Of a DNA stretch of 64,000 nucleotides, positions 170 through 16,095 are shown in pieces. How positions within the stretch are numbered: position 1 is the first letter of the stretch; every line of letters begins with the position of its first letter. Origin of the DNA: Muribaculaceae bacterium (GTDB lineage Bacteria; Bacteroidota; Bacteroidia; Bacteroidales; Muribaculaceae); assembly GCA_017621055.1 (NCBI GenBank), contig JAGATX010000004.1, positions 1-64,000 on the forward strand, in the 5' to 3' direction. Below the pieces are notes generated by a model. That model saw only the letters and a program-made list of their open reading frames with translations, was not told the origin of the DNA and did not search any database. The translations under genes were made by a program, and so were the position numbers.

Positions 170-376
170 TCCGCGTACGTCGGGCCGTGCGGCCCCTCCC
201 CGCGGGTGAAGCAATCTTAAAGCACCCGAGTTAAAACAAACAATTTTTAAACTCGTTTTTGAAACTTGAAAAGCTGACATATCGGTTGAGTAAGCCGCCA
301 CAAAGCCCGGAGGGGCGAGGCTGAAGACGCAGAAGCAAGCAACCAAGCAACAAAAACACAAACAATTCTCTACAAA
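170..376 (+). promoter_or_regulatory. rpsL-rpsG intercistronic leader, possible S7 autoregulatory or attenuator element
   Basis: This 207-nt gap has no open frame. Three stems are visible: GGGCC/GGCCC (182-195); CGGGTG (203-208) with CACCCG (223-228); and CGAGTT (227-232), extended by A/T pairs, with AACTCG (250-255), followed at once by a run of five T. The second and third stems share bases 227-228, so they compete at their ends. The third looks like a weak intrinsic terminator. In E. coli, S7 binds the rpsL-rpsG spacer to repress its own operon; a similar role here is inference from position and fold. Confidence 0.45.
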
Positions 377-853
377 ATGAGAAAGGCAAAACCTAAAAAA
401 CGGATTATCCTGCCCGATCCCGTGTTCGGCGACGTGCGTGTCACCAAGTTCGTCAACCATCTGATGTATGACGGCAAGAAGAACACGGCGTTCACCATTT
501 TCTACGACGCCCTCGAAACAGTGAAGAACAAACTGCCCAACGAGGAGCTCACCGCTCTCGACATCTGGAAAAAAGCCCTCGAGAACGTTACGCCTACCGT
601 AGAGGTAAAGAGCCGCCGTGTGGGTGGCGCTACCTTCCAGGTCCCCACTGAAATACGTGCCGACCGCAAGGAATCGATATCAATGAAAAACCTTATATCC
701 TACGCCCGCAAACGTGGCGGCAAAACCATGGCCGACAAGCTCGCCGCTGAAATAGTGGATGCTTACAACCTGCAGGGCGGCGCTTTCAAACGCAAAGAAG
801 ACATGCACAAGATGGCCGAGGCCAACCGTGCGTTCGCCCACTTCCGTTTCTAA
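377..853 (+). CDS. rpsG: 30S ribosomal protein S7
   Basis: S7 (158 aa) nucleates assembly of the 30S head on the 3' domain of 16S rRNA and contacts E- and P-site tRNA. The start MRKAKPKKR and the conserved segment [12 protein letters not shown] near residues 80-92 identify it, and the length is normal for the family. The ATG follows an A-rich, SD-less stretch. It lies between rpsL and fusA as in other str operons, with an unusually long spacer upstream (207 nt) and a short one (36 nt) before fusA. Confidence 0.98.
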
Positions 854-889
854 GCCGTTTTTCGTTGAATATTCAATAATCGAGCTACA

Positions 890-3016
890 ATGGCTAAATC
901 TGACGAACTTCTTAAGTATACCCGCAATATCGGCATCATGGCCCACATCGATGCCGGTAAGACAACCACATCCGAACGTATCCTCTTCTATACCGGCCTC
1001 ACCCATAAAATCGGCGAAGTACACGACGGCGCCGCTACCATGGACTGGATGGAGCAGGAGCAGGAGCGCGGCATAACAATCACCTCCGCCGCCACCACCA
1101 CGTTCTGGAAATACAACGACGAGAAATTCAAAATCAACCTTATCGACACTCCGGGACACGTCGATTTCACCGTCGAGGTAGAACGCTCGCTGCGTGTGCT
1201 CGACGGTGCCGTCGCCGCTTTCTGCGCCGTAGGCGGCGTGGAGCCCCAGAGTGAGACCGTATGGCGCCAGGCCGACAAATACAACGTGCCCCGCATAGGC
1301 TACGTCAACAAAATGGACCGCTCCGGCGCAAACTTCTTCGAGGTGGTGCGCCAGCTTCAGGATGTGCTCGGCGCAAACCCCTGCCCCATACAGATCCCCA
1401 TCGGCGCCGAAGAAACCTTCAAAGGCGTGGTAGACCTCATTACCATGAAGGCCATCTTCTGGCACGACGAAACCATGGGCGCCGACTATGAAATCGATGA
1501 AATTCCCGAGTCGCTGCGCGCCGAAGCCGAGCAGTGGCACGACAAGATGCTCGAGAAAATCGCCGAGTACGACGACGACCTGATGGCCAAGTACTTCGAC
1601 GACCCCTCCGCCATCACCGTCGACGAAATCAAACGCGCTCTGCGCAAAGCCACACTCTCCATGGACCTCGTGCCCATGATCTGCGGTTCCTCGTTCAAGA
1701 ACAAAGGCGTGCAGTGTCTGCTCGACGCCGTCTGCGCATACCTGCCCAGCCCCCTCGACGCCGGCGCCATCGAAGGCCACGCCGTCGACAACCCCGACGA
1801 AGTGGTGACACGCCATCCGTCATCCGACGAGCCCATGTGCGCCCTCGCATTCAAGATTGCCACCGACCCCTATGTGGGCCGTCTGTGCTTCTTCCGCGTG
1901 TACTCCGGCGACATCAACGCCGGCTCCTACGTGCTCAACAGCCGCTCCGGCAAGAAAGAGCGCATATCGCGCCTCTTCCAGATGCACTCCAACAAGCAGA
2001 ACCCCAAAGACGCCATCACCTGCGGTGATATCGGCGCCGGCGTGGGCTTCAAGGATATCCGCACCGGCGATACCCTCTGCTCCGAAGAGGCACCCATCGT
2101 CCTGGAGGCCATGGACTTCCCCGAACCCGTGATCGGCATCGCCGTAGAACCCAAGACCCAGAAAGACCTCGACAAACTCGGCGTGGGCCTGCAGAAACTT
2201 GCCGAAGAAGACCCCACCTTCCGCGTACAGACCAACGAGGAGACCGGCCAGACCGTCATCTCCGGCATGGGCGAGCTTCACCTCGACATCATCATCGACC
2301 GTCTGCGCCGCGAATTCAAGGTAGAGTGCAACCAGGGCCGACCCCAGGTAACATACAAGGAAGCCATCACCCGCCCCGTGGAACTTCGCGAAGTCTTCAA
2401 GAAGCAGACAGGCGGCCGCGGTAAGTTCGCCGACATCATCGTACGCGTAGAACCCGTCGACGAAGGCTTTGAAGGAAACCTCGAATTCGTCGACGAAGTG
2501 AAGGGCGGCAACATCCCCAAGGAATTCATCCCCGCCATCCAGAAAGGCTTCACAAACGCCATGAAGAACGGCGTCCTCGCCGGCTATCCCCTCGACCAGC
2601 TCAAGGTCACCGTCATCGACGGCTCCTTCCACCCCGTGGACTCCGACCAGCTGTCGTTCGAACTCTGCGCCATCCAGGCATTCAAGAAAGCCTGCGAGAA
2701 AGCAGGACCCGTGCTGCTGGAGCCCATCATGAAGATCGAAGTCGTAACCCCCGAGGAATCGATGGGCGACGTCATCTCCGACCTCAACAAACGCCGCGGA
2801 CAGGTGGAAGGCATGGAAAGCAGCCGTTCGGGCGCCCGCGTGGTAAAAGCCAAGGCTCCTCTGGCCGAGATGTTCGGCTATGTCACCGCCCTGCGTACAA
2901 TCACCTCCGGCCGCGCTACTTCGACAATGTCGTTCTCGCACTATTCCGAAGTGTCCAACTCCATAGCCAAGGAAGTTCTTACCGAATGCCAGGGCCGTGT
3001 GGACCTCCTTAAATAA
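890..3016 (+). CDS. fusA: Elongation factor G
   Basis: This 708-aa translocation GTPase moves tRNAs and mRNA after peptide-bond formation and acts with RRF in ribosome recycling. GTPase motifs are intact: G1 AHIDAGKTT (residues 18-26), G3 DTPGH (86-90) and G4 NKMD (140-143). Domains II-V follow, with the domain IV/V region rich in conserved Gly-Arg segments near the C-terminus. It is the third gene of the str cluster. Unlike many bacteria, no tuf follows; rpsJ starts 21 nt downstream, fusing the str and S10 clusters. The family has paralogues in Bacteroidota, but the location marks this as the canonical copy. Confidence 0.98.
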
Positions 3017-3037
3017 ATAAAGTAACAAAACAACCAT

Positions 3038-3343
3038 ATGAACCCCATCATCCGAATCAAACTTAAGTCGTACGACCACAGCCTCGTCGACAAAAGTGCA
3101 GAGAAGATCGTCAAGACAGTGAAGAGCATCGGCGCAGTCATCAGCGGACCCATACCCCTGCCCACCCACAAACGCATCTTCACCGTCAACCGCTCGACCT
3201 TCGTCAACAAGAAGAGCCGCGAACAGTTCCAGCTCAGCAGCTACAAGCGCCTGATCGACATCTACAACGCCACCCCCAAAATCGTGGACGCCCTGATGAA
3301 ACTCGAGCTCCCCTCCGGCGTGGAAGTGGAAATCAAGTGCTGA
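3038..3343 (+). CDS. rpsJ: 30S ribosomal protein S10
   Basis: S10 (101 aa) is a 30S head protein that also pairs with NusB in transcription antitermination. The conserved loop segment [15 protein letters not shown] lies near residues 45-60. It starts 21 nt after fusA, so the long S10 leader through which L4 controls this operon in E. coli is absent. Any L4 control would have to work differently here. The spacer to rplC is 49 nt and A/T-rich. Confidence 0.98.
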
Positions 3344-14883: not shown

Positions 14884-15000
14884 ATGAAAGTTAGAGCTTC
14901 CGTCAAGAAACGCACCCCGGACAGCAAAATAGTCCGTCGCAAAGGACGTCTTTACGTCATCAACAAAAAGAATCCCAAATACAAACAGCGTCAAGGATAA
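14884..15000 (+). CDS. rpmJ: 50S ribosomal protein L36, zinc-free type
   Basis: L36 (38 aa) is the smallest 50S protein. The frame [20 protein letters not shown] ending NPKYKQRQG matches L36. Compared with zinc-binding L36, the Cys positions hold Thr/Ser/Asn and no Cys or zinc knuckle remains, so this is the C-minus form that keeps working under zinc limitation. It sits between infA and rpsM as usual. It is too short for most ORF callers. Confidence 0.95.
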
Positions 15001-15006
15001 AATACT

Positions 15007-15387
15007 ATGGCAGTACGAATAGTGGGAGTTGACCTCCCCCAGAACAAAAGAGGTGAAATCGCCTTGACTTACATCTACGGCATCGGTCGCAGCGCTGCTA
15101 AGAGCATACTCAGCAAAGCCGGTATCAGCTATGACACCAAGGTACAGGACTGGACCGACGAAGAAGCTGCGAAAGTACGTGAAGTAATAGGCAGCGACTA
15201 CAAAGTAGAGGGCGACCTCCGCAGCGAGATCCAGCTCAACATCAAGCGTCTGATGGACATAGGCTGCTACCGCGGCATCCGTCACCGCAACGGCCTGCCC
15301 GTGCGCGGCCAGAGCACCAAGAACAACGCCCGCACCCGCAAGGGCCGCAAGAAAACCGTTGCCAACAAGAAAAAAGCTACTAAATAA
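15007..15387 (+). CDS. rpsM: 30S ribosomal protein S13
   Basis: S13 (126 aa) forms bridges from the 30S head to L5 and contacts P-site tRNA. Typical segments are [20 protein letters not shown] and the C-terminal [20 protein letters not shown] followed by a Lys-rich tail. It opens the alpha part of the cluster; S4 represses at this point in E. coli, but only 6 nt separate it from rpmJ here. Confidence 0.98.
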
Positions 15388-15395
15388 GAACTGAT

Positions 15396-15785
15396 ATGGC
15401 AAAAAAAACAGTCGCAGCGAAAAAACGCAACGTTAAGGTTGGCGCAGAAGGCCAGCTTCACGTTCATTCGTCGTTCAACAACATCATCGTGTGCCTTGCC
15501 AACAGCGAAGGTCAGGTTATCTCCTGGAGCAGCGCCGGCAAGATGGGCTTCCGCGGTTCGAAGAAGAACACGCCGTATGCCGCACAGATGGCAGCCCAGG
15601 ATTGCGCCAAGACGGCCTACGACCTTGGCCTGCGCAAAGTAAAGGCCTATCTCAAAGGCCCGGGCAACGGTCGCGAGAGCGCCGTCCGCACCATCCACGG
15701 CGCCGGTATCGCCGTAACAGAGATTATCGACGTTACGCCCCTGCCCCATAACGGCTGCCGTCCTCCCAAACGCAGAAGAGTCTAA
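15396..15785 (+). CDS. rpsK: 30S ribosomal protein S11
   Basis: S11 (129 aa) lies on the 30S platform beside the mRNA exit. The core [20 protein letters not shown] and the C-terminal ITDVTP-like [21 protein letters not shown] are diagnostic. It follows rpsM by 8 nt. After it comes the longest spacer of the whole ribosomal cluster, 310 nt, before rpsD. Confidence 0.98.
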
Positions 15786-16095
15786 TCAGTTGTCGGCCTC
15801 GGCGGCGAGCCCGCACCTCTGCGGAGCGGCAAAGCGGCCGGGACAACGACTCCAACTTTCCTTTTAGTAAGTATCTCTTCCCGACATAACAACAAACTCA
15901 CGTCGGAAGTGCCACCGGGGCAGCGGTCCGCCAAGGCCGCCCGACACAGGCCATCGAACGGTCACCGCCGCAGAGCGATTGGGTCATATTCATTTCACCT
16001 CTCTATGACCGCGGCTGCGCTCCAGCGACAAACAGACATCCCGACAGGCCGCCCGGCACCAACCCGACACAACCTAACTGATTAAACCAAGCAAA
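15786..16095 (+). promoter_or_regulatory. 310-nt structured spacer before rpsD, possible S4 autoregulatory leader
   Basis: No gene is seen here. GTTGTC (15789-15794) pairs with GACAAC (15842-15847); next to it GGCC (15795-15798) pairs with GGCC (15836-15839), and an inner CCGC/GCGG hairpin completes a branched domain. A second hairpin, GGTCAT (15982-15987) with ATGACC (16005-16010), stands nearer the gene. No TAnnTTTG box was noticed. S4 autoregulates in both E. coli and Bacillus, and in Bacillus the site is directly upstream of rpsD. That this spacer does the same is inference from fold and place. Confidence 0.5.

Follow-up and report, generated by a model that had tools for sequence, protein, structure and literature searches.

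Why does a tightly packed cluster of ribosomal protein (r-protein) genes leave long gaps before rpsG, rpsH and rpsD, the genes for S7, S8 and S4? The question is raised by a stretch of 64,000 nucleotides (nt) of a Muribaculaceae bacterium of the order Bacteroidales (contig JAGATX010000004.1), hereafter the window, which begins inside rpsL at the contig's first base and in which the 18-kb cluster from rpsL to rplQ comprises 33 genes and 32 gaps. As the original prediction had claimed, three gaps exceed 49 nt, namely those before rpsG (170-376, 207 nt), rpsH (9789-9933, 145 nt) and rpsD (15786-16095, 310 nt), and the other 29 measure 49 nt or less. The three genes are open reading frames of the + strand at 377..853 (rpsG), 9934..10335 (rpsH) and 16096..16701 (rpsD), and were named by position and sequence, without a family search. 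By hand arithmetic, a random draw of three of the 32 gaps gives exactly these three in 1 of 4960 cases; allowing also for L4, which in E. coli is the fourth repressor encoded in the cluster, raises the figure to 4 in 4960.

In all likelihood the three spacers are r-protein leaders that repress as in E. coli, those of S7 and S8 by mimicry of 16S ribosomal RNA (rRNA) and that of S4 by a known element; made in excess, each of the three proteins is probably able to shut off its own gene. The sequences themselves show the folds, their conservation and place and, for S7 and S8, the likeness to rRNA, whereas protein binding, translational repression and effects on neighbouring genes are carried over from E. 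coli. It is also likely that S7 and S8 have two undescribed families of rRNA-mimicking leaders, which share their Bacteroidales families and in most cases are accompanied by the known S4 leader. The leaders would then divide the 18-kb cluster into blocks, each block being under the control of the primary 16S-binding protein whose gene comes first in it; the same imitation of 16S helix 43 (h43) would have been reached or kept in the S7 leader and in the E. coli str messenger RNA (mRNA), and the S8 site would lie at rpsH, not at rplE.

The comparison comprised 80 + 120 loci of relatives, the window itself and L001, which comes from the same genome as the window; the cluster was annotated in all of them by tblastn with the window's proteins. 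Some genomes were present twice, and the 200 loci and the window gave 193 distinct rpsH starts. The median spacer in relatives was 155.5 nt before rpsG (n = 124), 78 nt before rpsH (n = 193) and 125 nt before rpsD (n = 187); among the other 29 spacers it was 43 nt or less in 28 and 55 nt in rpsJ-rplC. All three spacers are long at once in a single group of loci within the Bacteroidales. In L156-L181, which are deeper loci of that order, they are mostly 20-40 nt long, with ranges of -4 to 38 nt (rpsG), 18 to 54 nt (rpsH) and 18 to 94 nt (rpsD). Loci whose S8 is at least 75% identical to the window's S8 are referred to below as the core group.

Two covariance models were used, R1 for the S8 leader and R2 for the S7 leader, the window being among the building sequences of both. 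Searches at an expectation value (E) of 0.001 covered 70 Bacteroidales and 98 other Bacteroidota genomes; for R2 the best 58 and 41 candidates per genome were scored. Covariation was assessed by our own test, not R-scape, against a null in which columns evolved independently along a tree of 17 r-proteins.

The element in the rpsL-rpsG spacer

The R2 model gave a match of 68.2 bits (E 1.5e-10) at 252..358 of the + strand, the sole match in the window's genome at E 0.001 among the scored candidates. It ends 18 nt upstream of the rpsG start codon; the median distance in 94 aligned sequences, which include one locus for each of the 13 genomes matched (see below), was 17 nt, and the element ended at most 60 nt from the start codon in 93 of them, the distance in L126 being 83 nt. 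The layout is GGUUG-AGUAA-[hairpin]-UGAAGA-...-CAACC. All on the + strand, GGUUG (284..288) pairs with CAACC (340..344) to form an enclosing helix around AGUAA (289..293), a variable hairpin at the place of h43 (294..321, with GCC 294-296 paired to GGC 319-321) and UGAAGA (322..327). A possible outer helix of GUUUUUG (255..261, + strand) with CAAAAAC (351-357), present in the window's minimum-energy fold and weakly supported across relatives, was only slightly longer than in shuffles and is not claimed.

The enclosing helix was paired in 98.3% of cells, with little variation, and the three modelled pairs of the hairpin in 94.3% (94 sequences). Seven stem pairs covaried in the tree-based test (n = 85), six at E 0 (no simulated pair reached their level) and a seventh at E 0.017; L124, L133 and L134 (3 of 88) stayed outside this alignment because their variant motif was missed by the cutting pattern. 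In both helices together 61 cells were changed on both sides versus 16 in shuffles. R2 matches were obtained in the locus set from 40 of 97 and 57 of 100 sources, and the loose pattern AGUAR...YGAAG occurred in all 95 rpsL-rpsG spacers longer than 60 nt, a count made without shuffle control.

No 16S rRNA was found in the window's own genome, and 16S sequences were taken from L202, L205 and L209, L205 being of the same family as the window. Every L205 16S hairpin with at least 4 pairs and a span below 60 (1503 hairpins) was scored by the agreement of the five letters on its 5′ side with AGUAA and of the six letters on its 3′ side with UGAAGA. The top hairpin was AGUAA[UCGCGC..GCGCGG]UGAAUA with 10 of 11 flank letters, the next best reaching 8, and L202 and L209 gave the same best hairpin. 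This hairpin is h43, part of the S7 site. Its flank letters and those of the leader are alike, AGUAA being identical and UGAAGA the counterpart of UGAAUA, whereas the helix letters differ. The arrangement AGUAA-hairpin-UGAA was found in 79 of 93 rpsL-rpsG spacers, compared with 3 of the 465 shuffles and none of 1111 other spacers, and an outer helix of at least 5 pairs surrounded it in 75 of the 79; the 14 misses fail the strict pattern (AGUAA, UGAA and three contiguous pairs).

The S7 operator of E. coli str likewise lies in the rpsL-rpsG spacer, which in strain K-12 is readable as CUCCGUU-A-AGUAA-GG...CC-UGAAUUA-ACAACGGAG. The parts follow in the same order as in the leader (outer helix, AGUAA, inner hairpin, UGAA, outer helix), the inner hairpin of E. 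coli being closed by just two contiguous pairs. R2 gave no match at the E. coli rpsL-rpsG site, its sole match (E 3.8) being in fusA on the opposite strand, and the UGAAUU closure ties with two others at 9 of 11; the likeness is therefore one of plan and not proven kinship. According to the part of PMC10931766 available, repression of E. coli str depends on rpsL-rpsG translational coupling, and the cyanobacterial rpsL-rpsG region resembles the 16S S7 site (Meng 1989, as given there). Free S7 is predicted to bind the rpsL-rpsG leader as an imitation of the h43 part of its 16S site; once bound, it would block the translation of rpsG and that of coupled genes.

The element before rpsH

Directly before rpsH, R1 matched at 9880..9922 of the + strand (49.9 bits, E 1.2e-5), 11 nt upstream of the start codon, the sole match reported for the window's genome at E 0.001. 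The element spans about -54 to -12 of rpsH and has the layout UUAAA-UA-UUG-[stem-loop]-AUYAAUUUAA. The motif AAUAYUG was present in 131 of 135 distinct rpsN-rpsH spacers; of the four that it missed or left doubtful, L059 and L073 have the hairpin and L015 and L038 do not. An alignment of the 131, selected by that very pattern, showed covariation (tree-based, n = 130) of pairs 29-39 and 28-40 at E 0, 19-48 at E 0.01 and 30-38 at E 0.05. A model-based alignment, fitted to the structure and built from 91 matches in 100 sources, with 88 of its rows distinct, had 99.2% of cells paired, with changes on both sides in 7 of 13 pairs and in 118 cells versus 30 on average in shuffles. Within the rpsH spacer of the window, the first part (9791-9883) has a strong fold of its own, closed by CACUCUC/GAGAGUG, and differs freely among relatives.

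The S8 core, as derived from structural studies and selection experiments according to PMC4176348, consists of A595-(A596-U644), (G597-C643)-U641 and the invariant A642, and the spc mRNA numbering used there implies strands permuted relative to 16S rRNA. In the permuted order the E. coli rplE start reads GAAACUG at +6 to +12 and CAAGUC at +79 to +84. Read in the same way, AUAUUG (9888..9893, + strand) in the leader is the counterpart of 16S 640-645, its unpaired UA (9889-9890) being U641-A642, and UCAAU (9912..9916, + strand) is the counterpart of 594-598; A640-U598 and U644-A596 are kept, and G645-U594 is the next pair. An unpermuted reading of the hairpin was dropped; it lacks A642, and the permuted one is supported by L103 and L118, whose AUACUG..CGAGU gives C643-G597 and G595, the rRNA-like state. 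At the position of the base triple U641 is present, with C643-G597 in L103 and L118 and U-A in nearly all others; L073 has A643-U597 instead of U-A.

A structure-aware search for the core (A642, A640-U598 and A596-U644) found it in 141 of 144 core-group rpsN-rpsH spacers of at least 30 nt (L015, L038 and L072 being without it), in 3 of 720 shuffles and in 2 of 1060 other spacers. In 16S rRNA the same search found helix 21 (h21) alone in L205 and h21 with one more place in L202, and in the E. coli rplX-rplE stretch it found the known S8 site alone. Outside the core group the S8 core was missing from 15 of 16 rpsN-rpsH spacers of at least 50 nt, the exception being L155. The leader shares with h21 the topology and the key core letters, whereas its helix letters differ and its strands are permuted.

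The E. coli spc operator has the same internal-loop core with the strands permuted alike (GAAACUG..CAAGUC versus AAUAUUG..UYAAUU in the leader). That operator, however, lies at the rplE start, and the Bacteroidales element is a compact hairpin outside the coding sequence and directly before rpsH, usually with U641 and with A-U at 597-643; in the window rplX and rplE overlap by one base. R1 finds no match at the E. coli spc site. An arrangement separate from that of E. coli had been proposed, and this stands for the S8 and S4 sites, which are placed elsewhere, but not for S7, whose site lies where E. coli has it. Free S8 is expected to bind the leader hairpin, which imitates the h21 internal loop and stops some 10 nt short of the rpsH start codon, and bound S8 would keep the 30S subunit off rpsH; from its position at about -54 to -12 the element would exclude the subunit directly.

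The S4 element and the distribution of the three elements

The S4 element is already known. Rfam family RF03139 (S4-Bacteroidia) matched at 15982..16017 of the + strand with 35.1 bits (gathering score 34.7), and in the window fold a further helix of GAGCG (15973..15977, + strand) with CGCUC (16018-16022) surrounds this hairpin. The S4-Bacteroidia leader, predicted by Eckert and Weinberg in 2020 (PMC7247131, seen in part), lies before rpsD-rpoA-rplQ, and the window match likewise precedes rpsD. The RF03139 hairpin covaries in relatives. The 34-position Rfam model lacks an enclosing GUG/CAC helix, whose pairs are kept in 75 of 89, 82 of 89 and 77 of 90 relatives and whose middle pair covaries (U-A in 71 and C-G in 11 of 89). 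The end of CGCGGCUG lies at a median of 50 nt before rpsD in 97 sequences, which count the window and L001 both, although they are the same place, and at 78 nt in the window; at these distances the mode of action of S4 is less clear, and the protein would most likely act through the S4-Bacteroidia element. The conserved tail of the leader, CGCGGCUGC (16010-16017 and relatives), is complementary to the 530 loop of 16S rRNA (GCAGCCGCG).

In the genome searches R2 gave one match per genome, before rpsG, in 13 of the 70 Bacteroidales genomes. The same 13 each had a single R1 match, placed 8-11 nt before rpsH; RF03139 was found in 11 of the 70. Among the 98 other Bacteroidota genomes neither R2 (among the scored candidates) nor R1 gave any match at E 0.001. 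Position before the gene, a general trait of r-protein leaders, was checked in 94 S7 and 91 S8 sequences. In core-group loci with all three spacers visible, loose patterns found the S7 element in 92 of 92, the S8 element in 91 and the S4 element in 63; of 31 loci outside the core group 29 had none by the same patterns, one had S7 alone and one had S7 and S8. Of the 91 core loci with the S7 and the S8 element, 28 lacked that of S4 by simple patterns.

The loci L182-L193 have 104-155 nt before rpsH in 9 of 12 and 98-402 nt before rplC in 7 of the nine where this spacer is visible; the S8 core was found in none of them, nor was an R2 match. L184 and L186, which are outside the order, have another hairpin before rpsH, AAAGGUU-stem-loop-AAAACCAUAA, without the S8 core.

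As far as was searched, the S7 and S8 leaders are new and the S4 part is known. At gathering scores the S7 and S8 elements belong to no Rfam family, six relatives scanned gave no match besides RF03139, and the E. coli str and spc stretches gave none. The literature searched, available in part, yielded no S7 or S8 leader in Bacteroidota; Table 1 of PMC7247131 has none, and the tables of PMC8040213, which describes thousands of candidate RNAs from human microbiomes, could include them. The part of PMC10931766 available describes S7 regulation as unstudied in other phyla, with an E. coli structure that is not obviously conserved, and spc regulation as unknown in B. subtilis and other species besides E. 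coli and Vibrio; it also states that Bacteroidota do not use Shine-Dalgarno pairing. The two leaders would be candidates for S7 and S8 control in a phylum without such pairing, with a simple and testable rule of rRNA mimicry. The permuted S8 core offers a natural variant set for S8 recognition, and the S7 sites of E. coli and Bacteroidales raise the question whether leaders are inherited or repeatedly reinvented.

Weighing the alternatives

The original prediction proves largely right in its reading of the leaders. Covarying pairs, which it had expected in the three spacers, were found in all three, and the cores are conserved, although total spacer length varies freely (18 to 426 nt before rpsH and 12 to 649 nt before rpsD). 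In the comparison with 16S sites that it had suggested, the S7 leader proved to be like h43 and the S8 leader like h21, and the S4 element turned out to be RF03139.

Several observations nevertheless weigh against this reading. The folding energies do not tell the elements apart from shuffles (z = -1.4 for S7, -1.7 for S8 and 0.1 for S4; -2.1 for the whole rpsH spacer), and folding energy alone was discarded as a criterion. In the S7 alignment the covariation threshold was also passed by four column pairs that lie outside the stem (E 0 to 0.033), a result attributed here to misalignment or residual relatedness; its further pair types, 12 in number, do not exceed those in shuffles (11.5); GGCGG stands opposite CAACC in three leaders; and the tie of the E. 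coli closures was given above. In S4, two pairs adjoining the helix also pass. A letter-by-letter scan of 16S rRNA with the S8 core fails to single out h21, since 9-10 of 13 letters are matched elsewhere by chance, so that the case for S8 mimicry is that of the structure-aware search, whose features were fixed with the leaders already in view. Moreover, most S8 leaders carry A-U at the 597-643 pair, which is G-C in rRNA, and U at 641, where A stands in the family's own 16S rRNA and also in E. coli spc mRNA. Whether G645 pairs with U594 or with Y595 is settled in L103 and L118 alone.

Among the other explanations, the one that keeps most weight, while still improbable, is that the structures work without any r-protein, as elements of mRNA stability or processing or as translation enhancers. 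Covariation proves structure and not a ligand, and some such RNAs may bind no r-protein, a possibility raised in the accessible text of Eckert and Weinberg (PMC7247131). Two of the three, however, look like the 16S site of just that protein whose gene follows, which would be needless in a stability element, and the model matches are confined to rpsG and rpsH in the genomes searched.

Less probable still are internal promoters as the reason for the length of the spacers. A -7 promoter motif of Bacteroidota is TAnnTTTG, and promoter-like copies do occur inside the cluster, in 41 of 48 rpmJ-rpsM spacers of at least 45 nt, so that the scan, made for this type of motif alone, was able to see promoters. 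Yet among spacers of at least 45 nt the motif was found in 2 of 93 rpsL-rpsG, 2 of 144 rpsN-rpsH and 4 of 124 rpsK-rpsD spacers, below the shuffled rates of 0.09, 0.05 and 0.07, respectively, and its rarity there makes internal promoters unlikely; the conserved parts of the spacers are, besides, paired RNA with compensating changes. That the spacers are leftover junctions of the str, S10, spc and alpha operons, kept by drift, deserves hardly any consideration: total length does vary widely, but the cores are conserved or covarying over the families sampled, covariation contradicts drift, and the mostly 20-40 nt spacers of L156-L181 show that the long form is not the default state.

The same motif was present in the rpmJ-rpsM spacer of 116 of 192 sequences, mostly about 25-40 nt before rpsM, so that in relatives a separate promoter probably serves the rpsM-rpsK-rpsD-rpoA-rplQ block. 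The supposed single fused operon is not borne out, many relatives having a promoter-like site before rpsM; in the window the rpmJ-rpsM gap (15001-15006) is 6 nt long and leaves no room for TAnnTTTG.

A further conserved hairpin was found in the fusA-rpsJ spacer, which in the window is 21 nt long and lacks it. This hairpin, GGUUAGCGAAUGACUCUUAACC, precedes rpsJ in 24 of 45 spacers of 30-300 nt (L027, L054, L144 and 21 other loci), and no Rfam match was obtained in the three loci scanned (L027, L054 and L067). Covariation in its stem reaches E 0 for five pairs and E 0.007 for a sixth (n = 24), and the hairpin is a candidate S10-operon leader.

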